A stretch of 64,000 bases of DNA from NCBI RefSeq assembly GCF_009913235.1, contig NZ_CP047897.1, positions 3,657,001 through 3,721,000 of the forward strand, read 5' to 3'. Source of the stretch: Nibribacter ruber (lineage in GTDB: Bacteria > Bacteroidota > Bacteroidia > Cytophagales > Hymenobacteraceae). Below the pieces are notes generated by a model that saw only the letters and a list, made by a program, of their open reading frames with translations, was not told where the DNA came from and made no database searches. Shown in pieces: positions 2,255-63,152 of this stretch. The stretch's first letter is position 1. Every line of letters starts with the position of its first letter. The translations under genes and the position numbers were made by a program.

Positions 2255-2292
2255 CGTTTTTGGCTTATTTTCTAGGAAATAGGGCAAAAACG
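2255..2292. repeat. P38 palindrome, copy 1
   Basis: 38-bp near-perfect palindrome 25 bp after the eno stop. Flanking bases (TTTC / GGAAA) extend the self-complementarity beyond the conserved 38 bp. Confidence 0.85.
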
Positions 2293-2396
2293 GGAAATGA
2301 AAAAGTTCTGGTGGATGCAGTACCTGACCTGCCGGAAAACTTAGTAAATTCATGGCGGCAAGAGCAATCTTGCCGCCATTTTTATCTCCCTAGCAT

Positions 2397-2720
2397 ATGT
2401 TGGCGCGCGTTCCCAAATTTTTCAAGAACTTTTACTTTCTCACCAGCGTGGGCTTTTTGGTCTGGATGATCTTCTTTGACTCCAATGACTTCATCACGCA
2501 ATTCCAGACCAGCCGCAAACTGGCCGTGCTGGAAGAAGAGCGCGATTACTACGTAGAGAAGATTCAGGAAGTACAGAAAGACCGCAAGGAACTCCTGAGC
2601 AACCCAGAACTGCTGGAGAAATTTGCCCGGGAGAAATACCTCATGAAGAAACCCACCGAGGACCTGTACATCATTGTAGAAAAGGACGAAGACGAGCTAG
2701 AGGCAGAGCAACAGCAATAA
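2397..2720 (+). CDS. Septum formation initiator family protein (DivIC/FtsB-like)
   Basis: The 107-residue protein has a short cytosolic N-terminus, one membrane helix (about residues 14-28), a coiled coil (about 35-65, rich in EEERDYYVEKIQEVQKD-type heptads) and a NPELLEKFAREKYLMKKPTED segment. This is the layout of FtsB/DivIC proteins, which join FtsL and FtsQ/DivIB in the cell-division complex. The C-terminus is acidic (DEDELEAEQQQ). Its position after eno is the classical eno-ftsB order also seen in proteobacteria. A strong hairpin at 2731-2780 ends the unit. Family assignment is firm; exact orthology to FtsB or DivIC is not decided. Confidence 0.88.
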   Translation: MLARVPKFFKNFYFLTSVGFLVWMIFFDSNDFITQFQTSRKLAVLEEERDYYVEKIQEVQKDRKELLSNPELLEKFAREKYLMKKPTEDLYIIVEKDEDELEAEQQQ

Positions 2721-2730
2721 GCATCTCACC

Positions 2731-2780
2731 TATAAATGCAGAAGGCGCTCCTCAACCAGGTAGCGCCTTCTGCATTTATA
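2731..2780. terminator. Bidirectional hairpin terminator after the DivIC-like gene
   Basis: Perfect 19-bp stem (2731-2749 with 2762-2780) and a 12-nt loop, AT-rich at the base so that either strand ends in a U-containing run. It lies 11 bp after the stop. Confidence 0.8.
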
Positions 2781-2787
2781 TAGTTTC

Positions 2788-2825
2788 CATTTTTGGTCTA
2801 AGTTCTGGGAAACAGGCCAAAAACA
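2788..2825. repeat. P38 palindrome, copy 2 (diverged)
   Basis: The right arm AACAGGCCAAAAAC is intact. The left arm has several changes (CATTTTTGGTCTAAG). It lies directly after the 2731-2780 terminator. Confidence 0.6.
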
Positions 2826-2838
2826 AACTACATGTATC

Positions 2839-2948
2839 CTCGCTCGCGTCCCGCGAGTGTGAGACACTTGCGGCCTCTCGCCGCTTTCCGTATAATCCAT
2901 TTACCGGCCAGAGGCCTTTGTAGCACACACTCGCGGGACGCGAGCGAG
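2839..2948. repeat. 110-bp element bounded by perfect 23-bp inverted repeats (REPIN/MITE-like)
   Basis: Arms 2839-2861 and 2926-2948 are exact reverse complements built on CTCGCTCGCGTCCCGCGAG. A second, inner pair (GGCCTCT near 2872 and AGAGGCC near 2910) nests inside, so the whole element could fold into one long imperfect hairpin. It is more GC-rich than the surrounding spacer. No coding potential is seen. It fits a REP-doublet or MITE-like mobile repeat, but only this copy is in the window. Confidence 0.75.
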
Positions 2949-2990: not shown

Positions 2991-3028
2991 CGTTTTTGGC
3001 CTGTTTTCCGGAAAACAGGCCAAAAACG
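2991..3028. repeat. P38 palindrome, copy 3 (perfect)
   Basis: All 38 bases are self-complementary around the centre CCGG, and flanking CC/GG pairs extend it to at least 2989-3030. It sits 2 bp beyond the hscA stop codon (3031-3033, minus strand). This is one of two perfect copies and serves as the type sequence. Confidence 0.95.
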
Positions 3029-5043: not shown

Positions 5044-5081
5044 CGTTTTTAGCCTGATTTCTGGAAAACAAGCCAAAAACG
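5044..5081. repeat. P38 palindrome, copy 4
   Basis: CGTTTTTAGCCTGATTTCT followed by a matching right arm GAAAACAAGCCAAAAACG. It lies between two terminator hairpins in the spacer downstream of the metalloprotease gene. Confidence 0.85.
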
Positions 5082-5123: not shown

Positions 5124-5159
5124 ATAAAATCCCACTCCAAAACAGGAGCGGGATTTTAT
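5124..5159. terminator. Hairpin terminator downstream of metalloprotease gene
   Basis: 15-bp stem with one mismatch (5124-5138 with 5145-5159), with ATAAAAT at its base. It lies 30 bp past the stop of the minus-strand gene. Confidence 0.75.
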
Positions 5160-5188
5160 GCTATTTTCTATAAAACAGGCCAAAAACG
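5151..5188. repeat. P38 palindrome, copy 5 (half-degenerate)
   Basis: The right arm AAAACAGGCCAAAAACG is intact. The left arm is largely overwritten by the 5124-5159 hairpin. It ends directly at the stop of the minus-strand metalloprotease gene. Confidence 0.5.
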
Positions 5189-7621
5189 CTATTCGCAACT
5201 AAGGACTTCTAGTGAGCCAATGGGTGCGCCCGGCGGAAGGTCTTTGTGTAGTTGTGGTTTGGCGTTGGAGGGTTGGTCCAATCTGTTAAGGGCTAGAAGC
5301 GCGTTGGCTTTCACAGCATCATCATTAGACTTTGACAGTTTCTTAAGGTGCTTCTCTAACTCCTTTACTTTTAAGGTAGCCATGGCACGCACAGAATAAG
5401 CAGCATTGTCATTCTGAGATAAGGCCAGCAGATGCGTTAAGACCAATTGTTGCGTTAAGAATTGCGTCTGGCCTTGTAAACCGTCTTGCTGTTTGGCTTT
5501 CCAGGTGGCTTCCAGAATCTGGTCCATCACTTCCTCCAGGCCTAACTTGCTGCCTCTGGCTTTTAATTCAACCAAACGGGCGGCGCGCTCTGGATGAAAC
5601 AGAAACGACAAGGTGAAATCTGCCGAGGCTTCGGCGGCGGCCAAGGGGTCAAAGGTGAGACCGGTACGTTTGTCAAACAGTTCGCGCGTAGGAGACCAAC
5701 CGGCCGGCCTTGGCGGAATCAAGGCGATGATGTTCTCTGGTAGGGTGAGCACCTTGGGTTGAAGGGTTTCTAAGAGAGCTTCCAAGGCTTTCTGTTGCTC
5801 GGCCTCGGGTACTTTCTGGGTGACTAGTTGACCATCGCCTTTAGAAGCATAGGTATAGTTGACACCGCCTACCACTTTGGCCACCGATTCTACTTGGTAA
5901 CGGTGGTAGTTGTAAATGGGCACCAGCACGTCTTCCAGCATAGCCATGGGCACACCGGGCTTGATGTTGTTCAGGCCAAACTGCTGTAAGGCTTTCTCCC
6001 TTACGTTTAGCACATGACGTAATTCATCAGAGGCATTGGCGCCGTTGTCCCAGAGGTGCGCTTGCGGGTGCGCTCCGCCTGGGGAGCGGGCATCACGGTC
6101 AGAGATAAACTGCAAGCCTCTTTGGTGACCGGTGCGCAGGAGTTGGTCCAGCGCCTGTTTCTCGTTCACACCTTTGGCGAAGTCTTGGTAACCATACGTC
6201 ACGGCTAGTTTGTCCCAGTCGCCCATGCCCACCGCGTAGGCATCAGATAAATCAATTTTACCTTCGGATGTCAACTTGACGGTGGGGTGCGGGTAATCCA
6301 TGACCGAGGCGCGGTTGCTCACGCTGGCGGCGTAGTTGTGCATGATGCCCAGTGTGTGGCCCAACTCATGCGCCGACAGTTGACGTAAACGAGCGAGGGC
6401 CATCTTCATCATTTCGGGGTTGGCAGGTCTGCCTTCTTCATATGGGGCTAGCAAACCTTCGGCAATCAAATAATCCTGACGCACGCGCAATGAGCCCAGG
6501 CTAACGTGGCCTTTCAAGATTTCGCCGGTACGCGGGTCGGTCACCGAGGCACCGTAGCTCCAGCCTCTGGTACTGCGGTGCACCCATTGAATGACGTTGT
6601 AGCGGACGTCCATGGGGTCTGCATCTACGGGCAGAATCTCTACCTTGAACGCGTCTTTGTACCCGGCGGCCTCAAACGCCTGTGCCCACCAGCGGGCTCC
6701 ATCTAACAAGGCACTTCTGATGGGCTCCGGTGCGGCGTGGTCTACATAGTACACAATGGGTTTCACGGCCTCAGAGACGGCGGCGCCTGGGTTCTTCTTT
6801 TGCAGACGGTGACGGGCAATGTATCTTTTTACAATAGATTCGTCAATGGGTGTGCTGTAGTCCATATACTCAATCCCGAAGTAGCCGGCCCGCGGGTCCA
6901 TGGCTCTGGGCGTGTAGTTGGTGTCTGGCAGTTGAATAAAAGAATGGTGCTGACGCAAAGTAAGGGCCTCTGTAGAAGGGGCTACTTCACGAACCAAATT
7001 ACCGGCGTCATCACCGCCCACAAAGGTGAGCGAGGCTTCAAACTCCGTATTCTGCGGGAAGTTCTTAGTGCGGGGCAAATAAAAGGCAGAACGGGAGGCG
7101 TCTAATCTATACGATCCTTGTCGGGCTCGTTTAATGCTTCCTACCACGTCATGCGCGTCTCTCAGCAAAAAGTCAGTGGCGTCTACCAACACGGTTTTGC
7201 CATCGGTGGCTTCTACTTTAAAGCCCCACAGCGTGGACTGCGCGAAGGACTGGGCCACGGCCTGCTCCTCGGCGGGGTTGCCGTTCATGGCGCGGTAGCC
7301 TTGGTTGGGTTCAATGAGCAACACCTTCGGGCCTACCTTCTGGAAATACACCACATGCGTACCGCCCAACTGCCCTCTATCCAACCCAATGTCATTTGAC
7401 CCCAAGCCCGCCGGGAGAGAAGACACATACAGGAACTGCTTGTCCAGTTTGTCAATCTCCAGCAGAATCTTGCCTGTGGCCTCGTCCCAATAGAAAGGAA
7501 AGTAGCCGGCAAATTTTTGTAGCCCAGCAGTCTTGGTGGCAATGGCATTCGGTTTATTCTGCGCTGAAAGCTGGATGATAGTGGATAGAAGAAGCAGAAA
7601 GGAGAGGAGCGTTTTTCGCAT
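5189..7621 (-). CDS. Secreted zinc-dependent metalloprotease (DUF5117/DUF5118/DUF4953 type)
   Basis: 810-residue protein with a signal peptide (residues 1-21, ending in LSAQ). The zinc site HELGHTLGIMHN lies near residue 418 and is the metzincin-like HExxHxxGxxH. The N-terminal half matches the DUF5118/DUF5117 layout (YLPRTKNFPQNTEFEASLTF) and the C-terminal half the DUF4953-type domain. This Bacteroidota family is predicted to be exported; the substrate is unknown. A TTG-started form beginning at 7642 is possible, but the ATG at 7621 gives a clean signal peptide. That ATG and the first codons lie inside a P38 palindrome (7610-7647). Confidence 0.88.
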   Translation of the reverse strand: MRKTLLSFLLLLSTIIQLSAQNKPNAIATKTAGLQKFAGYFPFYWDEATGKILLEIDKLDKQFLYVSSLPAGLGSNDIGLDRGQLGGTHVVYFQKVGPKVLLIEPNQGYRAMNGNPAEEQAVAQSFAQSTLWGFKVEATDGKTVLVDATDFLLRDAHDVVGSIKRARQGSYRLDASRSAFYLPRTKNFPQNTEFEASLTFVGGDDAGNLVREVAPSTEALTLRQHHSFIQLPDTNYTPRAMDPRAGYFGIEYMDYSTPIDESIVKRYIARHRLQKKNPGAAVSEAVKPIVYYVDHAAPEPIRSALLDGARWWAQAFEAAGYKDAFKVEILPVDADPMDVRYNVIQWVHRSTRGWSYGASVTDPRTGEILKGHVSLGSLRVRQDYLIAEGLLAPYEEGRPANPEMMKMALARLRQLSAHELGHTLGIMHNYAASVSNRASVMDYPHPTVKLTSEGKIDLSDAYAVGMGDWDKLAVTYGYQDFAKGVNEKQALDQLLRTGHQRGLQFISDRDARSPGGAHPQAHLWDNGANASDELRHVLNVREKALQQFGLNNIKPGVPMAMLEDVLVPIYNYHRYQVESVAKVVGGVNYTYASKGDGQLVTQKVPEAEQQKALEALLETLQPKVLTLPENIIALIPPRPAGWSPTRELFDKRTGLTFDPLAAAEASADFTLSFLFHPERAARLVELKARGSKLGLEEVMDQILEATWKAKQQDGLQGQTQFLTQQLVLTHLLALSQNDNAAYSVRAMATLKVKELEKHLKKLSKSNDDAVKANALLALNRLDQPSNAKPQLHKDLPPGAPIGSLEVLSCE

Positions 7622-7647
7622 GATTTCTGGAAAAGAGGTCAAAAACG
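7610..7647. repeat. P38 palindrome, copy 6, covering a start codon
   Basis: Good palindrome CGTTTTTCGCATGATTTCT plus matching right arm. The initiator ATG of the metalloprotease gene (minus strand, 7619-7621) lies near its centre, and its left arm encodes residues 1-4 (MRKT) of the signal peptide. Confidence 0.85.
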
Positions 7648-8609: not shown

Positions 8610-8647
8610 CGTTTTTGGCCTCTTTTCCAGAATACAAGCCAAAAACA
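8610..8647. repeat. P38 palindrome, copy 7
   Basis: CGTTTTTGGCCTCTTTTCC with a slightly changed right arm (AATACAAGCCAAAAACA). It lies 14 bp after the CPBP gene stop. Confidence 0.8.
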
Positions 8648-11547: not shown

Positions 11548-11585
11548 CGTTTTCAGCCTATTTTCCAGAAAACAGCCCAAAAACG
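11548..11585. repeat. P38 palindrome, copy 8
   Basis: CGTTTTCAGCCTATTTTCC with right arm AGAAAACAGCCCAAAAACG, 3 bp beyond the stop of the minus-strand Ldh-type gene. Confidence 0.85.
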
Positions 11586-12761: not shown

Positions 12762-14381
12762 ATGAAAACTCTTCGTGTCCCGCTCTTGTTTTGCGTCCTT
12801 TGTTTTTGGCCTGTTTTCCAGATTCTAGCCCAAAAACAGGAATCCTTAACCACACAGGTGAAAGCTGTTACCGTGTTCCTGAACCGCGCCCAGGTCACCA
12901 ACGTGGGCAAAGGAACGGTAGAAGCCGGCGTCACCGAACTGGTTCTGGACGGACTTCCATCCCAACTGGACGAACGAAGCGTGCAGGTAAATCCTACCGG
13001 AAGTGTGACCTTGCTTTCCGTTAGGTATGAGCAGAACTATCTTATAGGCTCGCAGAAGCCCCGTGAGACCGAACAACTGGAAGACTCCCTTAAAAGCTAC
13101 ACCGGCCAGATACGCTCCTTGACCGACCAGCGCGAAGTCCTGCAAAAAGAAGAAGCCATGCTACAGGCTAACCAAAGCATTGGCGGTTCCCAGACTGGCA
13201 TTACCGCCGCCCGCCTCAAAGAAGTAGCCGACTTCTACCGCGCCCGCTTGCTGAGCATCCGGAAGGAAATGCAAACCGTGGACATACGCCTGGAGATTCT
13301 CAAAACCCGACAAGCCAGATTTATTAGTCAGTTAAATGAAGTAAACAGTCAATCAAAGGCTACGAGTAAGGTGATTGTGGCCGTGAAAGCCACCGCCCGT
13401 ACGCAGGTGGGTTTGGAGGTAACGTATTTGGTGTACAATGCCGGCTGGGAACCTATCTATGACATTAGGGCTACTGGCAACCAAGGGCCGGTGCAATTGC
13501 AATATAAAGCCAATGTGCACCAGAACACCGGCGTGAACTGGGACAACGTGCAATTGACCTTAGCCACTACCAACCCAGCAGAAGGCGCCCAGAAGCCAGA
13601 ATTGGAGCCATATTATATTGGCATTTTGCAGGCATCTCCAATTAGGAGGAAAGTTAAACATACAGCTCCAGTAATCATGGAGGACAGTGAAGATACCAAG
13701 TCATTAAGCGAAGTCGTGGTAACTGCCGCCCCAGCCACCAGCACCGCAGATTACACAGAAGCCGTGGCTACTACCTTGGCCGCCGAGTTCAAGATTGGGA
13801 TTCCGTTCAGTGTTCCGTCAGACGGAGAGCCGCATACCGTGGACGTGCAACAGCACAGTCTCACCACCGCTTACGCTCATACCACCGTACCTAAACTGGA
13901 CCCGACCGCCTTTCTGGTGGCGCACCTCACCAACTGGGAGAACCTGAAACTGCTTCCCGGCGAGGCCAATATTTTCCTGGACGGCACCTTCACGGGTAAA
14001 TCGGTGATTGACCCCACCCAGACGAAAGACACGCTCACCCTTTCGCTGGGCCGTGACCAGAATGTGGTGGTGCAACGCGAGCGAATGAAAGACTTTCAGA
14101 AGCGCTCCACGCTGGGCAGTAACATCAAAGAGCAGTTTGGCTATGAGATAAGCCTGCGCAACACCAAAAGCACGCCGGTTACCATCACCGTGGAGGACCA
14201 GATTCCCATCAGCACCCATTCAGACATTGAGGTAAGCGAGGTAGAAACCAACGGCGGCAAGCTGGACAAGGAAACCGGCAAAGTCACCTGGCTAGTCACA
14301 CTCAAGCCTAATGAGACCGTGAAAAGGAATCTTCGGTTTGAGGTGAAGTACCCTAAGAACAACAGAGTAAGCGGTCTGTAG
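12762..14381 (+). CDS. MuiA-like secreted protein (DUF4140/DUF4139)
   Basis: 539-residue protein with a signal peptide, an N-terminal DUF4140 domain (VKAVTVFLNRAQVTNVG onward), a coiled-coil stretch (about 100-195) and a C-terminal DUF4139 beta domain. Proteins of this layout are annotated as mucoidy inhibitor A-like; their biochemical role is not established. A short segment SLSEVVVTAAP near residue 310 resembles the start of a TonB-dependent plug but no barrel follows. The ATG at 12762 is used because it opens the signal peptide. The second half of that signal peptide (CFWPVFQILAQKQ) is encoded by a P38 palindrome. Confidence 0.86.
   Translation: MKTLRVPLLFCVLCFWPVFQILAQKQESLTTQVKAVTVFLNRAQVTNVGKGTVEAGVTELVLDGLPSQLDERSVQVNPTGSVTLLSVRYEQNYLIGSQKPRETEQLEDSLKSYTGQIRSLTDQREVLQKEEAMLQANQSIGGSQTGITAARLKEVADFYRARLLSIRKEMQTVDIRLEILKTRQARFISQLNEVNSQSKATSKVIVAVKATARTQVGLEVTYLVYNAGWEPIYDIRATGNQGPVQLQYKANVHQNTGVNWDNVQLTLATTNPAEGAQKPELEPYYIGILQASPIRRKVKHTAPVIMEDSEDTKSLSEVVVTAAPATSTADYTEAVATTLAAEFKIGIPFSVPSDGEPHTVDVQQHSLTTAYAHTTVPKLDPTAFLVAHLTNWENLKLLPGEANIFLDGTFTGKSVIDPTQTKDTLTLSLGRDQNVVVQRERMKDFQKRSTLGSNIKEQFGYEISLRNTKSTPVTITVEDQIPISTHSDIEVSEVETNGGKLDKETGKVTWLVTLKPNETVKRNLRFEVKYPKNNRVSGL
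12801..12838. repeat. P38 palindrome, copy 9, inside a signal peptide
   Basis: TGTTTTTGGCCTGTTTTCC plus right arm (AGATTCTAGCCCAAAAACA) lies wholly inside the coding region and is read in frame 1 of the element, giving CFWPVFQILAQK. The right arm has drifted (GATTCTAG for GAAAACAG), consistent with selection for coding. Confidence 0.85.
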
Positions 14382-14389: not shown

Positions 14390-14427
14390 CGTTTTTGGCC
14401 TGATTTTCAGAATTCAGGCCAAAAACG
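14390..14427. repeat. P38 palindrome, copy 10
   Basis: CGTTTTTGGCCTGATTTTC with right arm AGAATTCAGGCCAAAAACG, 8 bp after the MuiA-like stop codon. Confidence 0.88.
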
Positions 14428-17263: not shown

Positions 17264-17300
17264 CGATTTTGGCTTGTTTTTCTGAAAAGAACCAAAAACG
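17264..17300. repeat. P38 palindrome, copy 11 (37 bp, diverged)
   Basis: CGATTTTGGCTTGTTTTTC with right arm GAAAAGAACCAAAAACG. It lies 42 bp downstream of the small membrane protein gene. Confidence 0.7.
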
Positions 17301-17342
17301 CTATTCTCATCCTTCTTTTTCTTATTTGATTGAGTTTAGCAG

Positions 17343-18600: not shown

Positions 18601-18843
18601 CTGATTAAGTAAGAATTAATAATTAACAACTAGGAATTGGTGGTTCTAGAGGTTCTTTCACTGTTTTGACACCAATTGGGATAATACGAAAGAAGAACCG
18701 CTATGCCAGACACCTGTTTAAGTATTTTTTCAGCTTCTTCTATTTATCTGCTACAGAACAAAGAAAGTCGTTTTTGACCTATTTTCTGAAAAACAGACCA
18801 AAAACGACTTTTATCAATGGCTTTATAAATCTGCCTCTCACTG
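18601..18843. other. Spacer upstream of Ppx/GppA gene
   Basis: No gene supported. It contains P38 copy 12. The minus-strand promoter for the phosphatase should be here but no TAnnTTTG box is evident. Confidence 0.3.
18769..18806. repeat. P38 palindrome, copy 12 with extended complementary flanks
   Basis: CGTTTTTGACCTATTTTCT with fully matching right arm. The outer flanks AAGT / ACTT also pair, extending the hairpin to at least 18765-18810. Confidence 0.88.
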
Positions 18844-20198: not shown

Positions 20199-20236
20199 CG
20201 TTTTTGGCCTGATTCCCAGAAAGTAGGCCAAAAACG
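20199..20236. repeat. P38 palindrome, copy 13
   Basis: CGTTTTTGGCCTGATTCCC with right arm AGAAAGTAGGCCAAAAACG, mid-spacer upstream of dapF. Confidence 0.85.
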
Positions 20237-21116: not shown

Positions 21117-21154
21117 CGTTTTTCGCCTTATTTCCAGAAAACAGCCCAAAAACA
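21117..21154. repeat. P38 palindrome, copy 14
   Basis: CGTTTTTCGCCTTATTTCC with right arm AGAAAACAGCCCAAAAACA, 4 bp after the dapF stop and 12 bp before the GNAT start. Confidence 0.85.
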
Positions 21155-23210: not shown

Positions 23211-23248
23211 CGTTTTTGGGCTCTTTTTCAGAAAATAAGTTAAAAACG
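23211..23248. repeat. P38 palindrome, copy 15, between glycosyltransferase and glf
   Basis: CGTTTTTGGGCTCTTTTTC with right arm AGAAAATAAGTTAAAAACG. It begins 1 bp after the stop codon and occupies most of the 57-bp intercistronic gap. Confidence 0.8.
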
Positions 23249-24457: not shown

Positions 24458-26687
24458 CCTTGAGCTTTGGGGCGGCATTGAGTGTACAGTCAACCGGGTA
24501 GGGGAGCAGTACTTTGATCAGCTGGCACAGAGCGGGCATGCCCATAGACTGTCAGACCTGGAGGTGGTGGCAGACTTGGGCATCAAAAAGCTACGGTACC
24601 CGGTGCTTTGGGAGCACGTTGCCCCAGAACATCCAGAAAACCAGAATTGGGAATGGGCCACAGAGCGGTTGAACAAACTGCGTGACCTTTCCATAGATCC
24701 TATTGTGGGCCTGCTACATCACGGTAGTGGCCCGCAATATACCAACTTGCTAGACCCAGACTTCCCAGAGAAGTTTGCGACCTATGCCAAATCCGTGGCC
24801 AGACAGTTTCCCTGGGTCACACACTACACGCCCATCAATGAACCTTTGACCACGGCCAGGTTTAGCGCCTTGTATGGTCTTTGGTATCCGCATGCGCAGG
24901 ACGATGCCTCGTTTGTAAAAGCACTCTATAACCAGATCAAAGGCACACAACTGGCCATGCAAGCCATCCGGGAAATCACTCCTGAAGCCAAATTAGTGCA
25001 GACCGATGACCTGGGCTACATCCACGCTACCCCCACTCTGCAATATCAGGCAGATTTTGAGAACTATCGTCGGTGGCTGTCCTGGGACCTGCTGGCCGGA
25101 AAAGTAAATCCGCAACATCCCTTGTGGGACTATTTAACCGGCTCGCAACTGTCCACTGAAGCCTTGCTGGATTTAGTAAACAATCCCTGCCCGGCAGACA
25201 TCATAGGCGTTAATTACTATGTCACCAGTGAGCGCTATTTAGACGAGCATCTGATACAGTACCCCGTGCACACGCATGGCAGCAACGACCAGCACCGCTA
25301 CGCTGATGTAGAAGCCGTACGGGTGGCCAGTGTGACCCCGGTAGGCTTACAGCAATTGTTGACGGATGCCTGCGACCGCTACAACGTGCCGGTGGTGGTG
25401 ACCGAAGCGCATCTGGGCTGTTCCAGAGAAGAGCAGATGCGGTGGTTGCATGAGGTCTGGGATTCTGGGCTTTTTCTCCGGAAACAGGGCAAAAACGTAC
25501 TGGCCGTCACTGCATGGTCGCTGCTGGGGGCTTATGACTGGAACACCTTGCTCACCCAGAACAACGGGCATTACGAGTGCGGCGTGTTTGATGTGCGCAG
25601 CGGTACCCCCAGAGCCACGGCAGCGGCGCATCTGTTAAAGAAACTCGCCGCTGGCCAAGACGCCCACCATATTGCCCGCCTGCCCGGCTGGTGGAAAAGA
25701 TCCAACAGAGCCTTGTATCCAGAACCGCAGGAGGCTACTGAATGCTTCGGCCTTCCGGTGGATTTGGAAGAACTAAGCCATACGCCGCTCTTAATCACGG
25801 GCGCCACCGGAACCTTAGGAAGAGCCTTTGCCAGAATCTGTGAAGACCGTGGCTTGCCCTACGTGCTGCTCACCCGGCAGGACATGGACATTGCGGATTC
25901 AGCCTCGGTGGAGAAAGCCTTGACCAAATACAAGCCGTGGGCTCTGGTCAATACCGCCGGCTACGTGCGCGTAGATGACGCGGAGAATGATTCCATGGCC
26001 TGCTACCGCGAGAATACCCAGGGGCCCGTTTGCCTGGCCAGACACTGCCAAGCACGCAACATCGCATTTGTCACGTTTTCGTCAGACTTGGTTTTCAACG
26101 GAGAAAAGGCAGAACCCTATACCGAAACCGATCAGCCCAACCCTGTGAATGTCTATGGCAGAAGCAAGCTGCTGGCCGAAGTACAAGTGCTGGCGGCCAT
26201 GCCAGGGGCCCTGGTGATTAGAACCAGCGCGTTCTTTGGGCCTTGGGATGAGCATAATTTTGTGTTTCATGCCTTGCGGGCGTTTGCGCACCGCGAGCCG
26301 TTTACTGCGGTAGAAGACGCTAAAATCACACCTACCTACGTACCCGACTTGGTGAGCGCTACCTTAGACCTGCTCCTGGACCAGGCGCACGGCATCTGGC
26401 ACGTGGCCAACCAAGGCACATACACCTGGGCAGAGTTGGCCGATCTGGCTGCCAAGGTGGCTGGTTTAGAGGCGGCTCCTCATTTGCAGCCAGTGCCCCA
26501 GAAAGATGTTAACCTGCCCGCGCCGCGTCCTGCCTGTACGGCCCTAGCCTCTGAGAAGGGAATACACCTGCCATCTGTAGAAGACGCCCTGCGCCGGTTT
26601 TTATGGCAGAGCGAAGTTTGTTTCAGGCCGCCGGTTGCCGCGTTGGAAGACCAGGACCCTTCCTTTGAAATGGCCGCGCAAGCCTAG
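24450..26687 (+). CDS. Fused GH1-type glycosidase and RmlD-like sugar-nucleotide reductase
   Basis: 745-residue two-domain protein. Residues 1-410 form a family 1 glycoside hydrolase barrel with the acid/base Glu in TPINEPLTT (near 130) and the nucleophile Glu in VVVTEAHLG (near 318), so both catalytic residues are kept. Residues 445-725 form an SDR domain related to dTDP-4-dehydrorhamnose reductase with LITGATGTLGRAF (NAD(P) loop, near 450) and YGRSKLLAE (near 568). The start overlaps glf by 8 bp. Such fusions occur beside glf and glycosyltransferase genes, suggesting a role in surface polysaccharide assembly; the actual substrates are unknown. It is followed by a P38 copy. Confidence 0.85.
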   Translation: MGNLELWGGIECTVNRVGEQYFDQLAQSGHAHRLSDLEVVADLGIKKLRYPVLWEHVAPEHPENQNWEWATERLNKLRDLSIDPIVGLLHHGSGPQYTNLLDPDFPEKFATYAKSVARQFPWVTHYTPINEPLTTARFSALYGLWYPHAQDDASFVKALYNQIKGTQLAMQAIREITPEAKLVQTDDLGYIHATPTLQYQADFENYRRWLSWDLLAGKVNPQHPLWDYLTGSQLSTEALLDLVNNPCPADIIGVNYYVTSERYLDEHLIQYPVHTHGSNDQHRYADVEAVRVASVTPVGLQQLLTDACDRYNVPVVVTEAHLGCSREEQMRWLHEVWDSGLFLRKQGKNVLAVTAWSLLGAYDWNTLLTQNNGHYECGVFDVRSGTPRATAAAHLLKKLAAGQDAHHIARLPGWWKRSNRALYPEPQEATECFGLPVDLEELSHTPLLITGATGTLGRAFARICEDRGLPYVLLTRQDMDIADSASVEKALTKYKPWALVNTAGYVRVDDAENDSMACYRENTQGPVCLARHCQARNIAFVTFSSDLVFNGEKAEPYTETDQPNPVNVYGRSKLLAEVQVLAAMPGALVIRTSAFFGPWDEHNFVFHALRAFAHREPFTAVEDAKITPTYVPDLVSATLDLLLDQAHGIWHVANQGTYTWAELADLAAKVAGLEAAPHLQPVPQKDVNLPAPRPACTALASEKGIHLPSVEDALRRFLWQSEVCFRPPVAALEDQDPSFEMAAQA
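25463..25499. repeat. Possible degenerate P38 copy 16 inside the GH1 domain
   Basis: The right arm CCGGAAACAGGGCAAAAACG is close to consensus. The left arm is weak. It is read as part of GLFLRKQGKNVL. The residues fit a normal GH1 alignment without an obvious insertion, so this may be chance. Confidence 0.35.
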
Positions 26688-26710: not shown

Positions 26711-26748
26711 CGTTTTTGGCCTGTTTCTCGCAAAACAGGCCAAAAACG
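26711..26748. repeat. P38 palindrome, copy 17
   Basis: CGTTTTTGGCCTGTTTCTC and matching right arm, with flanks AAC / GTT also pairing. It lies 23 bp after the fusion gene and could act as the cassette terminator. Confidence 0.9.
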
Positions 26749-31545: not shown

Positions 31546-31583
31546 CGTTTTTGACCTACTTTCCAGAAAAGAGGCCAAAAACG
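31546..31583. repeat. P38 palindrome, copy 18 with long complementary flanks
   Basis: CGTTTTTGACCTACTTTCC with matching right arm. ACTGC / GCAGT outside the core also pairs, giving a 48-bp hairpin 31541-31588 after the lipoprotein gene. Confidence 0.9.
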
Positions 31584-32869: not shown

Positions 32870-32907
32870 CGTTTTTGGCCTGTTTCTCAGAAAATAGGCC
32901 AAAAACG
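32870..32907. repeat. P38 palindrome, copy 19, in terminator configuration
   Basis: CGTTTTTGGCCTGTTTCTC and matching right arm. AGAGC / GCTCT flanks pair as well, and the hairpin is followed by CTTTTTT (about 32912-32918), so this copy looks like a working rho-independent terminator for the M20 gene. Confidence 0.9.
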
Positions 32908-33227: not shown

Positions 33228-33265
33228 CGTTTTTGGGCTGCTTTCAAGAAATCAGGTCAAAAATG
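33228..33265. repeat. P38 palindrome, copy 20 (diverged)
   Basis: CGTTTTTGGGCTGCTTTCA with right arm AGAAATCAGGTCAAAAATG, upstream of hsp20. Confidence 0.72.
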
Positions 33266-33427
33266 ATTCAAAGTTGCCTTGATTCAGACATTGTGTCATA
33301 TTTAGAATTCTCTTATTCTTTAAATACGGACGTATTGACTTGTTTTTAGCTTAATTTTCAATTGGTACAGATTTTACTGATAAGAAAGTATCAACTGAAA
33401 AATCAACTTAAAAACGAGAATAAGACA

Positions 33428-34044: not shown

Positions 34045-35538
34045 ATGAAAACAAAACAATTAATGCTAGGGCTCATGCTCTCTGCCATGATGGGCGGCGG
34101 CGTGGCCATTGGAGGCTATAAACTGCTGGAAGACGATCAACCCACTGCGGGACAGCAGTTGCCTAACACCAACGTACGGTACACCAGTGCCATGCGGGAC
34201 GGCAAAGTAGTAGTGCCGGAAGGCCTCAATTTTCAAACCGCTGCTGAGCTGGTGACCCCGGCGGTGGTGCACGTGACCACGGAGTATAAAATGCAGACCC
34301 GCCAGATGCCAAGCGACATGCACCCGTTCTTCCGGGATTTCTTTGGCGATGAAGGCATGGAAGGCTACCAGCGACAGCAAGGTCCGGCCATGGGTTCTGG
34401 TTCTGGAGTCATCATTGCCTCTAACGGCTACATTGTCACCAACAACCACGTCATTGACAAGGCAGACAAGATTGAAGTGATTCTGGACGACAAACGCAAG
34501 TTTGAAGCCACCTTGGTAGGCACAGACCCCAACACCGACATCGCTTTGTTGAAAATCAACTCTGATAACCTGCCGGCCTTGCGCTACGCCAACTCAGACA
34601 ACGTGAAAGTGGGCGAGTGGGTATTGGCCGTGGGCAACCCGTTCAACCTCAACTCTACTGTGACGGCGGGTATCATCAGTGCCAAAGGTCGTAACGTGGG
34701 TATTCTGCAGGGTGCCGGCAATTACAGCGTAGAGTCTTTCTTACAGACAGACGCCGCCGTGAACCCGGGCAACAGTGGGGGTGCTTTGGTGAACCTGAAT
34801 GGAGACTTGATTGGCATCAACACCGCCATTGCGTCGCAGACGGGTACCTTCTCTGGTTATTCCTTTGCCGTGCCATCTGCTATTGTAAGCAAAGTGGTGG
34901 ATGACTTGCTGAAGTTCGGGGAGGTACAGCGTGCCTTGCTGGGCGTGCAGATGCAGGAGATTGACGCCAAACTGGCCGCCGATAAGAAATTGAAAGACCT
35001 GAACGGTGTGTTTGTGGCTGGTTTCTCTGAGAGCAGCGCCGCCAAATCTGCCGGTATTGAAGAAGGTGACGTGATCACTGAGATCAACGGCGTGAAGGTG
35101 AACACCGGGGCCCAGTTGCAGGAACAGGTAACGCGCTACCGTCCGGGTGACAAGATCAAGGTTGGCTACAGCCGCGGCGGAAACACCAAGACCGTGAACG
35201 TGACTTTGCGCAATGCCAACGGCAACACCGAGATTGTGAAGCGTGATCCTAACTCGCCTAAATCTATGACCATTGACGGGGCCAAGTTTGAGGCCGCCAG
35301 CAAGAAAGACCTCAACAGCCTGGACATTACCGGCGGGGTTAGAATCTCGGGTGTAGAGAAAAGCGCCTTCGCTGATTCTGGCATCAAGGACGGTTTCATC
35401 ATCACCCAGATTGACAAGAAACCTACCAGCGCGCCAGAAGACGTGAACGAAATCTTGAAGAGCACCCGTCGGGGCGGTCTCTTGATTGAAGGCGTTTACC
35501 CAGACGGTAGACGCGCCTACTACGCCATTGGCCGCTAG
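34045..35538 (+). CDS. Do-family periplasmic serine endoprotease (HtrA/DegP/DegQ)
   Basis: 497-residue protein with an N-terminal membrane signal (about residues 4-26), a trypsin-like domain with the triad His in VTNNHVID (near 134), Asp in NTDIALLK (near 165) and Ser in NPGNSGGALV (near 242), and two PDZ domains (about 290-380 and 400-490). It degrades or refolds damaged envelope proteins. The insertion QRQQGPAMGSGSGVI before the catalytic domain is usual. The stop codon (35536-35538) forms the first three bases of a P38 palindrome. Confidence 0.94.
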   Translation: MKTKQLMLGLMLSAMMGGGVAIGGYKLLEDDQPTAGQQLPNTNVRYTSAMRDGKVVVPEGLNFQTAAELVTPAVVHVTTEYKMQTRQMPSDMHPFFRDFFGDEGMEGYQRQQGPAMGSGSGVIIASNGYIVTNNHVIDKADKIEVILDDKRKFEATLVGTDPNTDIALLKINSDNLPALRYANSDNVKVGEWVLAVGNPFNLNSTVTAGIISAKGRNVGILQGAGNYSVESFLQTDAAVNPGNSGGALVNLNGDLIGINTAIASQTGTFSGYSFAVPSAIVSKVVDDLLKFGEVQRALLGVQMQEIDAKLAADKKLKDLNGVFVAGFSESSAAKSAGIEEGDVITEINGVKVNTGAQLQEQVTRYRPGDKIKVGYSRGGNTKTVNVTLRNANGNTEIVKRDPNSPKSMTIDGAKFEAASKKDLNSLDITGGVRISGVEKSAFADSGIKDGFIITQIDKKPTSAPEDVNEILKSTRRGGLLIEGVYPDGRRAYYAIGR

Positions 35539-35573
35539 TTTTAGGCTGATTTCCAGAAAACAAGCCAAAAACG
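35536..35573. repeat. P38 palindrome, copy 21, containing the Do-protease stop codon
   Basis: TAGTTTTAGGCTGATTTCC with right arm AGAAAACAAGCCAAAAACG. The first base pairs have changed to TAG, the gene's stop. Confidence 0.82.
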
Positions 35574-37231: not shown

Positions 37232-37269
37232 CGTTTTTGGGCTAATTCCCAGAAAACAAGCCAAAAACA
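37232..37269. repeat. P38 palindrome, copy 22
   Basis: CGTTTTTGGGCTAATTCCC with right arm AGAAAACAAGCCAAAAACA, 5 bp after the ALDH stop and touching the next hairpin. Confidence 0.85.
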
Positions 37270-39036: not shown

Positions 39037-39597
39037 TTGGAGACGCTGGAATACACAGACGTAAACGCGCACATAGTGACCCGCTGCAAAGCCGGCGACC
39101 GCAAGGCGCAATATGAGCTCTACAAGCTCTACAGCAAAGCCATGTTCAACGTGAGCATGCGCATCACCAACGACTACACAGAGGCCGAGGATGTCTTGCA
39201 GGAGTCGTTTCTGAGCGCGTTCAAGGAGTTGGGCACCTTTAAGGGAGATTCAACCTTTGGCAGTTGGCTCAAGCGCATTGTCATCAACAAGTCCATTACC
39301 AAGGTGCGCAGCCGGCGCCTGCAGGTAGTGCCCATGGAAGATTATATGGAGGTGGCAGACGAGGGACCAGAGTTAGACGAGGAAGAGATGCAGTACAAGG
39401 TGGAGAGCATTCGGCGCGCCATCCAGAAACTGCCAGACGGCTACCGGGTGGTGCTGTCTCTGTACCTGCTGGAAGGCTACGATCACGGCGAGATCGCTGA
39501 CATCCTGAGCATAAGTGAAGCTACCTCCAAGTCACAATACAGCCGGGCCCGCAAGAAACTGCTGGGCCTGATGGAAGAAGAGGCGTTTTTAGCCTGA
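39037..39597 (+). CDS. ECF-type RNA polymerase sigma factor
   Basis: 186-residue sigma-70 family protein with region 2 (about residues 10-80, including YTEAEDVLQESFLSAFKELGTFKGDSTFGSWLKRIVINK) and region 4 (about 125-180, LPDGYRVVLSLYLLEGYDHGEIADILSISEATSKSQYSRARKKL). It directs polymerase to a specific regulon. No in-frame ATG exists between the upstream stop (39013) and region 2, so TTG at 39037 is the likely start. The next genes encode a likely membrane anti-sigma factor and a DUF4097-type protein, a usual set. The final codons and the stop lie inside a P38 palindrome. Confidence 0.9.
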   Translation: METLEYTDVNAHIVTRCKAGDRKAQYELYKLYSKAMFNVSMRITNDYTEAEDVLQESFLSAFKELGTFKGDSTFGSWLKRIVINKSITKVRSRRLQVVPMEDYMEVADEGPELDEEEMQYKVESIRRAIQKLPDGYRVVLSLYLLEGYDHGEIADILSISEATSKSQYSRARKKLLGLMEEEAFLA

Positions 39598-39621
39598 TTT
39601 CTCCAAAACACAACAAAAACG
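39584..39621. repeat. P38 palindrome, copy 23, spanning the sigma-factor stop codon
   Basis: CGTTTTTAGCCTGATTTCT with weaker right arm (CCAAAACACAACAAAAACG). It encodes the terminal FLA and stop of the sigma factor and fills the gap before the anti-sigma-like gene. Confidence 0.8.
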
Positions 39622-41626: not shown

Positions 41627-41664
41627 CGTTTTTAGGTTATTTTACCCAAAACAGGCCAAAAACG
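41627..41664. repeat. P38 palindrome, copy 24
   Basis: CGTTTTTAGGTTATTTTAC with right arm CCAAAACAGGCCAAAAACG, 8 bp before the RidA ATG. Confidence 0.8.
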
Positions 41665-44099: not shown

Positions 44100-44137
44100 C
44101 GTTTTTGGCCTGTTTTCCGGAAAACAGGCTAAAAACG
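44100..44137. repeat. P38 palindrome, copy 25 (near-perfect)
   Basis: CGTTTTTGGCCTGTTTTCC and right arm with one change (AGGCTAAAAACG). It begins on the base after the MutS-like stop codon. Confidence 0.93.
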
Positions 44138-46620: not shown

Positions 46621-46658
46621 CGTTTTTAGGCTGTTTTCTGGAAATCAGGCAAAAAACG
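46621..46658. repeat. P38 palindrome, copy 26
   Basis: CGTTTTTAGGCTGTTTTCT with right arm GGAAATCAGGCAAAAAACG, 28 bp after the esterase stop. Confidence 0.83.
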
Positions 46659-48151: not shown

Positions 48152-48189
48152 CGTTTTTGGCCTGTTTTCCAGAAAATAGACCAAAAACG
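48152..48189. repeat. P38 palindrome, copy 27
   Basis: CGTTTTTGGCCTGTTTTCC with right arm AGAAAATAGACCAAAAACG, 3 bp after the NDH-2 stop. Confidence 0.88.
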
Positions 48190-51086: not shown

Positions 51087-51124
51087 CGTTTTTGGCCTGT
51101 TTTCCGGAAAACAGGCCAAAAACG
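51087..51124. repeat. P38 palindrome, copy 28 (perfect)
   Basis: Identical over all 38 bases to the copy at 2991-3028. It lies mid-spacer, not next to a stop codon. Confidence 0.95.
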
Positions 51125-51956: not shown

Positions 51957-51994
51957 CGTTTTTGGCTTATTTCTACGGAATTAGCGCAAAAACG
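51957..51994. repeat. P38 palindrome, copy 29, upstream of RluA gene
   Basis: CGTTTTTGGCTTATTTCTA with right arm CGGAATTAGCGCAAAAACG; the centre has drifted. It lies in a 5' leader or promoter rather than after a stop. Confidence 0.75.
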
Positions 51995-54040: not shown

Positions 54041-54078
54041 CGTTTTTGGCTTGTTTTCTGAGAAATAGCTTGAAAGCT
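54041..54078. repeat. P38 palindrome, copy 30 (right arm decayed)
   Basis: The left arm CGTTTTTGGCTTGTTTTCT is intact. The right arm reads GAGAAATAGCTTGAAAGCT, only partly complementary. Confidence 0.6.
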
Positions 54079-54938: not shown

Positions 54939-54976
54939 TATTTTTGACCTATTTACTGATAAATAAGCTAAAAATG
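54939..54976. repeat. P38 palindrome, copy 31 (diverged, pairing kept)
   Basis: TATTTTTGACCTATTTACT with right arm GATAAATAAGCTAAAAATG. Outer flanks CTTTTC / GAAAAG pair too. Core bases have changed in both arms while the hairpin is mostly kept. Confidence 0.7.
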
Positions 54977-58731: not shown

Positions 58732-58769
58732 CGTTTTTGGCCTGTTTTCTGGAAAATACCCCAAAAACG
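58732..58769. repeat. P38 palindrome, copy 32
   Basis: CGTTTTTGGCCTGTTTTCT with right arm GGAAAATACCCCAAAAACG. It begins about 1 bp after the OMP stop and lies between convergent genes. Confidence 0.85.
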
Positions 58770-60996: not shown

Positions 60997-61000
60997 TAAA

Positions 61001-61038
61001 ACAGAGAAGGCAGGCTTTAAGGAGCCTGCCTTCTCTGT
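61001..61038. terminator. Bidirectional terminator between convergent genes
   Basis: Perfect 16-bp stem ACAGAGAAGGCAGGCT / AGCCTGCCTTCTCTGT (61001-61016 with 61023-61038) followed by TTCTT. Confidence 0.88.
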
Positions 61039-61041
61039 TTC

Positions 61042-61470
61042 TTATTTGTTCAGGAAAGGGTAGTTGTACTGTACGGGGCTTCCCAACTGCTGCCAGCGGG
61101 CAATCACCTCCATGGAATGTGCAATCTCATTGAAGTACTCCAGGCGTCTGATTAGGTGCTCTTTCAGAAGAACGGTGCCTTGTGGGGTCTTCATGTAAGC
61201 ATGCTTGTCTTGCAGAATCTTGTAGATGGCATCAGAGAGGCGCTTGGCGTCCTGACGGTACTGGGTCTCAAATTCTGTGAACGCCTCAAAGCCTTCCTTG
61301 GTACTGTTCAACTCAACGCCTACGTGGCGCAGAATGTCATAGAGCATGCGCACCTCCAGAGGCATGGAAATATGGTAAGGAGTCGTCCGGATGTCCACGC
61401 CGTTTTTCAGGTGACGGGCAATGGTGTCTACGTTGTTCTCAAAGCGTTCAAAAAGGGCACTTGCTTCCAT
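61042..61470 (-). CDS. Helical cytosolic protein, unknown function
   Basis: 142-residue all-helical protein (FERFENNVDTIARHLKNGVDI, YDILRHVGVELN, DAKRLSDAIYKILQDKHAYM, LIRRLEYFNEIAHSMEVIARW). No signal peptide, membrane helix or recognisable family. Its ordinary codon use and position just after a bidirectional terminator support a real gene. Confidence 0.65.
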   Translation of the reverse strand: MEASALFERFENNVDTIARHLKNGVDIRTTPYHISMPLEVRMLYDILRHVGVELNSTKEGFEAFTEFETQYRQDAKRLSDAIYKILQDKHAYMKTPQGTVLLKEHLIRRLEYFNEIAHSMEVIARWQQLGSPVQYNYPFLNK

Positions 61471-61532
61471 GTAAATCTTGTAAATGTATTGCTGCCGTAA
61501 AAGTACAGATCACTTTGGCTATTTCATAGTGT

Positions 61533-62978
61533 TTAGACAGAAGCCGTTGGCTCCGTTTTTGGCCTGTTTTCCAGAAAATAGCCAGAAAACGGCTGAGACA
61601 TGTGGTGCGCCAGTTGGTGGGCCTGCTCCCGTAGCTCGGCTACGGCGTTGCTTTCCCAAAGTGATCCCCTTCTGCTGGAGCCCAGCGTGAACAACCCCTG
61701 GCTTGGCGTGCCATCATTCTGGAGCAGGCTCCCCATGCCGTCTGTCTGCAATCCCATTTGCAGCGGATGCGCCAGCGCCAGGCCCTGCTGAAGAATGGAC
61801 TGGACCAGGGGATCTTGCAGGGCAGGATACGTAAGCTGCGGCCCGGTACAGTTGATGACGCGGTCTGCCAGAAGGGTAATCCTTGGCTGGCCAGACCTGG
61901 GTTGTACTGCTACCGCCAGGCGCCCCTTCTCTACGGTGAGCGACTGCACCCTGCCCGCCAGTACCTGCAGTTGTCCTTTCTGTTGCATTTCCTGCAGGCT
62001 GGCGTACACCTCAGGAGGGAGCCGGTGCCGAACCACTCCCCAGAGCGAACTCAGCCTGGAGAGGAAGGTCCGCTGCTCAGCTAAGGTCAGCCGTTGCCAA
62101 AGTGCATGCGTATGCGGCCGTATGCCATTGACCATCTCCTCCCAGCCCTGGCCTTGGTTGGCCTTGAGGGTTTGGTTAAACAGACGCACCATGTCCAGAA
62201 GGGTAGGAGCTTGCGCCAACCGGTCCCCGAAGCCTGTGTCTGCCCTCCCGGAAAGGTACGGCCTAGGCAAGTACCCATGGGTAGACACGGCCACCACCTC
62301 GCCCTGAAACCCTTGTTGCTGCAAGGCTTGGAGCGTGTCTATGGTGGTAAGGCCGGTTCCTAGTAAAACCACGCTGGCTATAGACGGCAATCCTTTGAGC
62401 GTGTCTGGCTGCCATGGGTCTGCCACGTACAATGGTGGAGTCAAGGCCTCTATATCTGTAGGAGAAAGGCACCGCAGTGGGGCCGGCTTGAAATTGCCGA
62501 GGGCCAAGACCACCTGGTCCACAGAAAAAGGCCGGCCGCTTTCTACCTGTAGGTGATAGGTTTCCTGCAGAAGGTTTTTGGTAGTGGTAAGATGATTAGC
62601 CCTTTCATTGATTACCCGAAACGTCTGTTGGTGCTGTTCCTGGGTCTGTTGCAGAAGAGCTTCTAAGTAGGCACCGTACAATGCGCGGGGTACAAAGGTG
62701 GCGGCTATTTCTTCTGAAGTTAGGAGCTGGTATGCTGGTTGTGTGGCCAGCCAGTCTACAAAATGCGTGGGTTGGTCTGGGAAAGCGCTCATGCGCCCCG
62801 CCGGCACATTGAGCAGGAAGGCGTCTGAGCTGGGCGCATAGGCCACTCCTTTGCCCGTTGGATAGCCACTGTTGAATAGGAGTACTTCTACCGGCTGCCG
62901 GTTTTGCCTGAGCAGATGGACGGCTACCATGGTGCCACTGAACCCTCCTCCAATAATAGCAATGGTCTTGCGGTGCAT
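61533..62978 (-). CDS. FAD/NAD(P)-binding oxidoreductase (pfam13454-type)
   Basis: 481-residue protein. The FAD motif IAIIGGGFSGTMVAVHLL (near residue 5) is followed by GKGVAYAPSSDAFLLNVPAGRMSAFP, the hallmark of the FAD-NAD(P)-binding family that includes HydA-like and SidA-like proteins, and LLGTGLTTIDTL (near 215, second nucleotide loop). VINCTGPQ is near 400. The ATG at 62978 gives MHRKTIAIIGGG. The last 14 or so residues (FSGYFLENRPKT and what follows) are encoded by a P38 palindrome and look like an acquired tail. Reaction unknown. Confidence 0.8.
   Translation of the reverse strand: MHRKTIAIIGGGFSGTMVAVHLLRQNRQPVEVLLFNSGYPTGKGVAYAPSSDAFLLNVPAGRMSAFPDQPTHFVDWLATQPAYQLLTSEEIAATFVPRALYGAYLEALLQQTQEQHQQTFRVINERANHLTTTKNLLQETYHLQVESGRPFSVDQVVLALGNFKPAPLRCLSPTDIEALTPPLYVADPWQPDTLKGLPSIASVVLLGTGLTTIDTLQALQQQGFQGEVVAVSTHGYLPRPYLSGRADTGFGDRLAQAPTLLDMVRLFNQTLKANQGQGWEEMVNGIRPHTHALWQRLTLAEQRTFLSRLSSLWGVVRHRLPPEVYASLQEMQQKGQLQVLAGRVQSLTVEKGRLAVAVQPRSGQPRITLLADRVINCTGPQLTYPALQDPLVQSILQQGLALAHPLQMGLQTDGMGSLLQNDGTPSQGLFTLGSSRRGSLWESNAVAELREQAHQLAHHMSQPFSGYFLENRPKTEPTASV
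61554..61591. repeat. P38 palindrome, copy 33, forming a protein C-terminus
   Basis: CGTTTTTGGCCTGTTTTCC with right arm AGAAAATAGCCAGAAAACG, inside the last 60 bp of the FAD protein gene and read as FSGYFLENRPKT. Flanks CCGTTGG... / ACGGCT also pair partly. Confidence 0.88.
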
Positions 62979-63114
62979 AATGCTGCAGGTTAGGATGCTT
63001 GTAGGGTCTCTGGCCACCAATAGCAGAAGTACAAGCAGTGTCTCTGCAAACTGGTTTTAAGAAAAAAAGTTACGGGGAAGCAGCAGGCCGAAACCTGGTG
63101 ATGGGGGAAGTGCT

Positions 63115-63152
63115 CGTTTTTAGGCTGTTTTTCAGAAAATAGGCCAAAAACG
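63115..63152. repeat. P38 palindrome, copy 34
   Basis: CGTTTTTAGGCTGTTTTTC with right arm AGAAAATAGGCCAAAAACG, 2 bp after the MoxR gene stop (minus strand). Confidence 0.88.

Follow-up and report, generated by a model that had tools for sequence, protein, structure and literature searches.

The 64,000-nucleotide stretch of Nibribacter ruber DNA analyzed here (contig NZ_CP047897.1, positions 3,657,001 to 3,721,000; hereafter the window) carries many copies of a 38-bp palindrome, P38, composed of two 19-bp arms. We propose, with a probability of slightly under 60%, that P38 is a double-stranded recognition site for a putative dimeric (or dimer-of-dimers) protein, positioned at transcription-unit boundaries across a single genus. 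An earlier note on this DNA had offered a mobile repeat, a DNA-level signal, and a genome-wide 3'-end RNA element as possible explanations. Our results support the second of these, based upon a fixed half-site geometry, the lack of strand bias among mismatches, independent variation of the arms in 5 of 10 species, and conservation of the places that P38 occupies. Bacterial palindromes that lie outside genes and have high copy numbers are generally classed as mobile repetitive extragenic palindromes (REPs) or as terminators (PMC3733652). For P38, the sequence evidence points away from both assignments and toward a fixed double-stranded site, the consensus of which has shifted in step at many orthologous places within each species.

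Abundance and geometry of P38

A scan allowing at most 12 mismatches to the 38-bp consensus and a position-weight scan identified the same 34 copies in the window, matching the count of about 34 in the earlier note. Also borne out were its statements that the copies at 2991-3028 and 51087-51124 are perfect and identical and that P38 recurs roughly once per 1.9 kb in the window. In a larger sample of the same genome (G000), which consisted of the window, both flanks, and 18 further stretches and covered 460 kb of 4.35 Mb, we found 167 copies, or one per 2.75 kb, corresponding by extrapolation to about 1,600 in the genome. Copies were present in all 19 sampled chromosome places at 2-10 per 20 kb. 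Five matches with three or fewer mismatches occurred in the window, as compared with 0.00 in 100 shuffles, and the weakest accepted copy had a score of 22, whereas no shuffled sequence reached 0 (one first-order Markov shuffle per stretch of the 460-kb sample). A P38-free third of the chromosome was considered and rejected, as copies with 0-1 mismatches were present in stretches fetched there, and an apparent foreign island at a low-G+C stretch of the sample was traced to masked bases.

The two half-sites were separated by 2 bp in 149 of 154 pairs from the 460-kb sample. We also used a strict T-tract skeleton (GTTT-N9-TTT-N4-AAA-N9-AAAC) and a genus sample, the Rufibacter group (16 genomes), in which the relatives fetched with a protein from the window are Rufibacter species and one Sabulibacter. 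Across ten genus members, skeleton halves occurred 355 times at the P38 gap, whereas the remaining gaps between -4 and 30 accounted for 33 pairs in total, 8 of them at one gap in G061. Half-sites were seldom solitary: 297 were paired and 4 solitary at a score of 18, and 323 were paired and 40 solitary at a score of 10, where shuffles gave 18. Thus, half-site spacing is fixed, as for the site of a dimeric sequence-specific protein, and because hairpin loops need no fixed length, the 2-bp center points to a dimer on the double helix. Solitary half-sites and an insertion sequence with P38 ends were pursued as candidates and rejected; 7 half-sites with scores of at least 16 were solitary in 460 kb, at least 3 of these have a partner at another spacing, and the end pattern was sought up to a 60-bp gap. 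In the window, two inverted half-sites at 33341-33358 and 33399-33416 are 40 bp rather than 2 bp apart and may represent a site split by an insertion.

The P38 consensus is symmetric from end to end, with CG at both ends and variable flanking positions. In G000, T4, T5, T15, and T16 are conserved at 98-99% and position 13 at 53%. Within the arm, the G000 consensus has GTTTT at positions 2-6 and again, 11 bp further on, at positions 13-17.

Placement at gene boundaries

Using gene calls from our own simple caller, we found that 2 of the 167 copies in the G000 sample were inside predicted genes; both lie in the window, where 3 further copies are in divergent gaps. In the sample, P38 was present in 28 of the 42 gaps between convergent genes, in 100 of the 229 tandem gaps, and in 13 of the 43 divergent gaps. 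Occupancy of tandem gaps was 1 of 35 for those under 40 bp and 56 of 88 for those over 200 bp. The earlier note placed the start of most copies 1-30 bp after a stop codon, which is half right: 17 of the 34 copies in the window lie within the interval of -5 to +30 nt around a stop codon when the two in-gene copies are measured to the neighboring gene. Across ten species, 82 of 450 tandem copies were 0-10 nt past the stop codon, as compared with 35 expected by random placement. Intrinsic terminators usually sit farther from the stop codon than this peak.

P38 coexists with ordinary terminators. The five terminators that the earlier note named near P38 copies (2731, 35584, 37268, 48215, and 54978) are stem-loops, as judged by eye. 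A simple intrinsic-terminator finder called a terminator at 53 of the 105 convergent ends that carry P38, at 31 of 64 carrying symmetric P38 copies (defined below), and at 47 of the 103 that lack P38; for four sister genera the value was 40 of 86. For tandem ends, in a test limited to gaps of at least 80 bp, the corresponding values were 92 of 228, 28 of 79, 84 of 366, and 43 of 145. We therefore rejected a model in which P38 replaces terminators at convergent ends, as terminator frequency there is equal with and without P38, and these equal rates indicate that P38 comes on top of the normal terminator complement. The higher frequency of terminators at tandem ends with P38 would be expected if P38 avoids operons.

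Conservation of individual sites

We compared 100 kb around the window with six relatives, using 46-60 orthologous gaps per relative and calling copies with a model that was re-estimated species by species and that is permissive for the diffuse dialects of G006 and G061. These species-level relatives retained P38 in 129 of the 141 comparisons of orthologous gaps. Of the P38-positive gaps in G000, 26 of 28 were also positive in G017, 22 of 25 in G012, 21 of 23 in G048, 18 of 21 in G006, 21 of 23 in G045, and 21 of 21 in G061. The reverse pattern, P38 in the relative and none in G000, was found in 16 gaps (0 in G017, 2 in G012, 0 in G048, 3 in G006, 5 in G045, and 6 in G061). Conserved sites include those in divergent gaps. 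Identity between species was 0.53-0.77 in the P38 core, as compared with 0.34-0.55 across the remainder of those gaps, and T4, T5, T15, and T16 were kept at 0.72-0.93 at orthologous places.

This conservation bears on an alternative model in which P38 began as a REP-like mobile palindrome spread by a REP-associated tyrosine (RAYT, Y1) transposase and was later domesticated. REPs, as described in a portion of PMC3733652, are extragenic, have high copy numbers and species-specific variants, and prefer convergent or unidirectional gaps near stop codons, all of which apply to P38. Y1_Tnp genes are present in 15 of 16 genus genomes, and inspection by eye showed P38 within 450 nt on each side of 7 of the 12 Y1 loci fetched, as compared with 142 of 476 isolated genes. 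Of nine Y1 proteins, three fit all three motifs of Bacteroidetes subclass 2.6 (NH[LIV]H, WQ, and YIH[QN]NP, as given in a portion of PMC6006769), five are close, and one differs. These Y1 (RAYT-like) transposase genes (loci L159-L170) are small, most resembling Bacteroidetes subclass 2.6. Several results do not fit mobility, however. First, places are conserved between species when empty and filled gaps are compared. Second, the closest relative, G017, carries 607 skeleton sites yet lacks a Y1_Tnp match, and 1 of the 12 Y1 loci lacks any P38 copy in the 450 nt to either side. Third, direct repeats bordering P38, tested at lengths of 5, 6, 8, and 9 bp, were found in 0-2 copies per test versus 0-1.4 expected, with no long target duplication, although shorter end repeats were slightly raised (51 versus 35.5 for 2-mers at offset 0; 13 versus 5.2 for 4-mers at offset 1). 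Finally, the end-to-end symmetric consensus has no tag tetranucleotide at one end, and arm pairing is not maintained in half of the species. Hence, the suggestion of a mobile repeat is not supported, and we regard this model as improbable; the mild excess at Y1 loci keeps it alive as an account of the possible origin of P38 and not of its present behavior.

Species dialects

The consensus arm is CGTTTTTGGCCTGTTTTCC in G000, TGTTTTGGGCCTGTTTTCC in G012, CGTTTTCGGGCTCATTTCC in G048, and CGTTTAGGGGCTGTTTTTC in G045; the G017 arm is identical to that of G000 except for the last base. In these dialects, the T-tracts stay and the stretch between them drifts, with G006 and G061 being more diffuse. 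The inner repeat in G048 is now CATTT and the outer repeat is still GTTTT, indicating that the two subsites evolve separately.

Comparison of 18-26 orthologous gaps per relative revealed how individual positions have changed. From G000 to G048, position 13 was kept in 0.12 of arms. From G000 to G045, position 18 was kept in 0.16, position 6 in 0.27, and position 7 in 0.25 of arms, and from G000 to G012, position 7 was kept in 0.19 of arms. Orthologous copies were hardly more alike than non-orthologous copies (27.2 versus 26.0 of 38 positions for G012), except in the closest pair (31.9 versus 28.1 for G017). The low likeness of orthologous copies, together with the changes at dialect positions, indicates that many sites moved in the same direction in place. 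An in-place shift of this kind would be predicted if the sites share a reader whose specificity changes. Concerted copying between sites is an alternative source of dialects that shift in step, but locus-specific flanks argue against long copying tracts.

Mismatches, arm coupling, and symmetric copies

Clustering of copies after stop codons would also be consistent with a model in which P38 acts as an RNA hairpin, either a 3'-end terminator or an mRNA-stabilizing structure. A selected RNA hairpin is expected to tolerate G-U mismatches above A-C mismatches. With tandem copies oriented by the upstream gene, G-U and A-C mismatches in the core numbered 323 and 335 for 345 tandem copies from ten species, 341 and 345 for 281 copies from seven species, and 104 and 98 for 90 copies from G000, in sets that overlap. 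Thus, mismatches in the P38 core have no strand preference. In the flanks, G-U mismatches (136 versus 155 expected) were somewhat less depleted than A-C mismatches (101 versus 134 expected), as an RNA hairpin would predict. The arms of G000 were independent or even anti-matching, with position 13 paired in 47 of 168 copies versus 65 expected. Pairing of middle positions was at or below chance in G000, G017, and G048 and not clearly above chance in G045 and G032.

We sorted 657 non-genic copies from ten species, chosen for two or fewer skeleton mismatches, by comparing the arms over 18 positions. By this criterion, 136 were symmetric (two or fewer arm differences), 372 were asymmetric (five or more), and 149 were in between. 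Symmetric copies were found in 90 tandem, 40 convergent, and 5 divergent gaps and at 1 edge; the values for asymmetric copies were 253, 51, 64, and 4. Asymmetric tandem copies had no excess of T-runs, with 21 of 253 on the downstream side and 28 of 253 on the control side. The number of symmetric copies exceeded that for shuffled arms in G012, G032, G037, G060, G061, and G006, whereas it was close to the independent-arm expectation in G000 (44 versus 42), G017 (6 versus 5), G045 (22 versus 17), and G048 (14 versus 12). The link between symmetry and flank pairing was present in species with and without a symmetric excess. The split was sharp in G045 (stretches L096-L102), in which 20 copies were near consensus, 30 were diverged, and 5 were between; the mean flanking run was 5.3 pairs for near-consensus copies (5 of 20 with none) and 0.4 pairs for diverged copies. 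Most near-consensus copies in G045 have locus-specific flanking inverted repeats of up to 16 bp, as if they had recently been made symmetric. With respect to a possible template-switch origin of such repeats, one G045 site (gene pair 75/76) resembles left-to-right copying.

Multiple observations weigh against a simple protein site. First, four or more contiguous flanking pairs were present in 60 of 136 symmetric copies (with runs up to 16) versus 8 of 372 asymmetric copies, and T-runs beside symmetric tandem copies were on the transcribed side in 28 of 90 cases and on the other side in 8 of 90. Secondary structure is therefore important for some copies. Second, pairing of middle positions was above chance in G012, G037, G060, G061, and G006 (z 2.2-4.5), and this coupling in half of the species argues against pure arm independence, although it comes partly from the symmetric class. 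When symmetric copies were excluded, pairing at positions 6-8 was still clear in G037 alone (120 versus 93, z 3.7), a result to be read with care because dropping symmetric copies itself lowers pairing. Third, gaps without P38 had identities of 0.52-0.82 and equaled or exceeded the P38 core in 5 of 6 relatives (0.61-0.82), being lower in one; as many of these are short gaps within operons, a factor left uncontrolled, the argument for constraint rests on the contrast within gaps. Fourth, a screen for the binding protein, in which Y1 transposases were the only candidates, found none. Finally, the boundary function is argued from position only, and the conserved sites in divergent gaps, as observed, fit a boundary mark and not a pure 3'-end role.

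The first two of these points, the flank mismatches, and the clustering near stop codons favor an RNA hairpin. Nevertheless, G-U mismatches in the core equal A-C mismatches, the length of the loop hardly varies, and T-runs are not in excess after asymmetric copies. Moreover, copies in divergent gaps are conserved, and convergent-end terminators are as frequent with P38 as without. As paired flanks are rare and T-runs not in excess outside the symmetric class, a minority of copies are in terminator-like hairpins and the majority are not. Accounting for P38 in general as an RNA hairpin is thus highly improbable in our judgment. The proposal of a genome-wide 3'-end RNA element is not supported for most copies, although the symmetric minority extends into terminator-like hairpins. 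The earlier note reasoned that P38 would be an ordinary terminator class if relatives showed no presence/absence variation and copies coincided with transcript ends; such variation is indeed small, yet most copies are not terminators as judged by sequence.

Taxonomic distribution

The skeleton matched 860 times in the whole G000 genome and 186-1,561 times per genome in all 16 genus genomes, with 0-2 matches for a reversed control. Genomes sampled from other genera were at background level, with one exception. In a draw of 241 genomes from the order, no genome outside the genus had more than 6 matches, except G164 (15 matches, control 8). In a draw from the phylum, which contained no other genus member, 0 of 394 other genomes had the G000-like outer arm pair, and four sister genera had 0-4 hits with two or fewer mismatches in 100 kb each. 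The window had 0 matches to Rfam families at the gathering score, and viral contigs had no match to the G000 dialect. The exact 38-mer was absent from the genome contigs searched, which possibly do not include the source genome. In the open-licence literature, we found no paper joining Hymenobacteraceae with an intergenic inverted repeat, which does not establish absence from print.

The exceptional genome, G164 (loci L171-L179), belongs to another Cytophagales family and is 72% complete. It contains 899 copies of CGTTTT-N-GGC-N7-GCC-N-AAAACG, a 27-bp palindrome that is exactly 11 bp shorter than P38 and has an outer arm matching that of P38 in the G012 dialect except for the first base. When the gap was left free to vary from 2 to 12, all 17 exact copies in a sample had a gap of 7. 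The 74.6-kb sample contained 52 copies with three or fewer mismatches. Six of these fell at the edges of contigs, and all but 1 of the remaining 46 were intergenic. None of the seven other genomes examined from this family had the pattern. A difference of one helical turn between the two palindromes fits what might be expected for a protein site, although it may be a coincidence.

A model for P38 function

In our model, a protein would bind P38, making two T-tract contacts per arm that are separated by a turn of the helix (T4-T5 and T15-T16, with T17 usually included) and that bracket a species-specific stretch, with the two arms held at the fixed 2-bp spacing. A dimer would grip four T-tract contacts at the ends of many genes and not inside operons. 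RNA polymerase that has passed a terminator could be stalled or released there, or supercoils and antisense transcription could be kept from crossing. Acting next to ordinary terminators as a polymerase obstacle or supercoiling barrier, the bound protein may mark or insulate gene boundaries. Its specificity would drift and drag the sites along by selection. In the symmetric minority at gene ends, flanking inverted repeats, partly with a T-run, extend the palindrome, and P38 makes up the top of a terminator-like hairpin.

The same DNA site could alternatively serve chromosome architecture, with the bound protein compacting or looping the nucleoid or docking a topoisomerase and with intergenic gaps merely tolerating the sites. 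The presence of P38 in every sampled chromosome place and in convergent, tandem, and divergent gaps is consistent with this possibility. A distributed role would not, however, demand conservation site by site, and individual places are kept where the rest of the gap is near saturation; the bias of tandem copies to gene 3' ends also weighs against it. We consider an architectural role unlikely.

A broader version of the boundary model would have one rapidly evolving putative protein act on at least 1,000 palindromic sites at gene edges throughout the chromosome and insulate transcription units beside terminators, with specificity and sites shifting together between species and a 27-bp version having arisen in or been transferred to a second Cytophagales lineage (G164). 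We offer this version tentatively, as a possibility about which doubts outweigh confidence. If a binder exists, P38 would provide a natural experiment in the co-evolution of one protein with about a thousand sites.

P38 copies in the window

The copies in the window are listed below. The window also contains a fused gene (24450-26687) that has an N-terminal portion like glycosyl hydrolase family 1 and a C-terminal RmlD-type sugar reductase.

Table 1. P38 in the window. Entries are P38 copies unless described otherwise; no strand is assigned.
Positions	Description	Basis
2255..2292	tandem gap	consensus scan
2788..2825	degraded, convergent gap	consensus scan
2991..3028	perfect palindrome, convergent gap, stop codon 2 nt away	
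5044..5081	tandem gap	consensus scan
5151..5188	one degraded arm, abuts stop codon	consensus scan
7610..7647	divergent gap, overlaps predicted start of minus-strand gene	
8610..8647	convergent gap	consensus scan
11548..11585	stop codon 3 nt away	consensus scan
12801..12838	divergent gap, present in 5 of 5 relatives compared there	
14390..14427	symmetric class, tandem gap	consensus scan
17264..17301	degraded, convergent gap	consensus scan
18769..18806	paired flanks, tandem gap	
20199..20236	divergent gap, in 6 of 6 relatives compared there (one has two copies)	
21117..21154	tandem gap	consensus scan
23211..23248	1 nt past stop codon	consensus scan
25460..25497	weak P38-like match in a gene, probably non-functional	
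26711..26748	symmetric class, tandem gap	
31546..31583	paired flanks; relatives carry different paired flanks there	
32870..32907	paired flanks and T-run	
33228..33265	tandem gap	consensus scan
35536..35573	overlaps stop codon; same place in six relatives (seven species in all)	
37232..37269	5 nt past stop codon	consensus scan
39584..39621	overlaps gene end	consensus scan
41627..41664	8 nt before start codon; 7-9 nt in 5 of 6 relatives, at another position of the gap in the remaining one	
44100..44137	symmetric, abuts stop codon of MutS-like gene; in 4 of 6 relatives compared	
46621..46658	tandem gap	consensus scan
48152..48189	symmetric class, convergent gap, separate terminator beside it at 48215	
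51087..51124	perfect palindrome, tandem gap	
51957..51994	tandem gap	consensus scan
54041..54078	one degraded arm	consensus scan
54939..54976	degraded, adjoins terminator at 54978	
58732..58769	fills 43-bp convergent gap; found at this place in six relatives as well	
61554..61591	in 3' end of predicted minus-strand gene	
63115..63152	stop codon 2 nt away	consensus scan

Comparison with known systems

P38 resembles REPs, bacterial interspersed mosaic elements (BIMEs), and REP doublets forming hairpins (REPINs), with their RAYT transposases, in being a short extragenic palindrome of high copy number that lies near stop codons and has lineage-specific variants. REPs are defined (PMC3733652) by a GTAG or CGTC tag that lies unpaired beside one stem end. 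P38, by contrast, is symmetric without such a tag, has a fixed length and conserved places, is not consistently accompanied by a Y1 transposase, and, in half of the species, has arms free of a pairing constraint.

A DNA-uptake or self-recognition signal with dialects would be analogous to the DNA uptake sequences (DUS) of the Neisseriaceae, which, like P38, are short motifs present genome-wide at high copy number, with lineage dialects around an invariant core. DUS occur singly as well as in inverted pairs. Portions of PMC3630211 state that DUS often form inverted pairs associated with terminators, that their dialects are expected to be mirrored in the binding protein ComP, and that intragenic DUS are common. 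Unlike DUS, P38 is palindromic, has very few solitary halves (4 versus 297 paired), and is almost absent from genes (2 of 167 copies), making an uptake function very improbable indeed.

OmpR/PhoB-type boxes are direct repeats, as exemplified by the PhoP sequence GTTTA every 11 bp. Recurrence of GTTTT after 11 bp in the P38 arm is similar, but the inner and outer subsites of P38 evolve separately, as seen for CATTT and GTTTT in G048.

Noc, SlmA, and MatP in bacteria, like CTCF or Reb1 in eukaryotes, recognize dispersed double-stranded sites, with one protein reading many places, and Reb1-type sites lie at the ends of transcription units. In comparison with the sites of these nucleoid and boundary proteins, P38 is far denser per base, is longer (38 bp), and is present at many gene boundaries. 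If a protein that binds P38 exists, it could be a bacterial counterpart of boundary factors.

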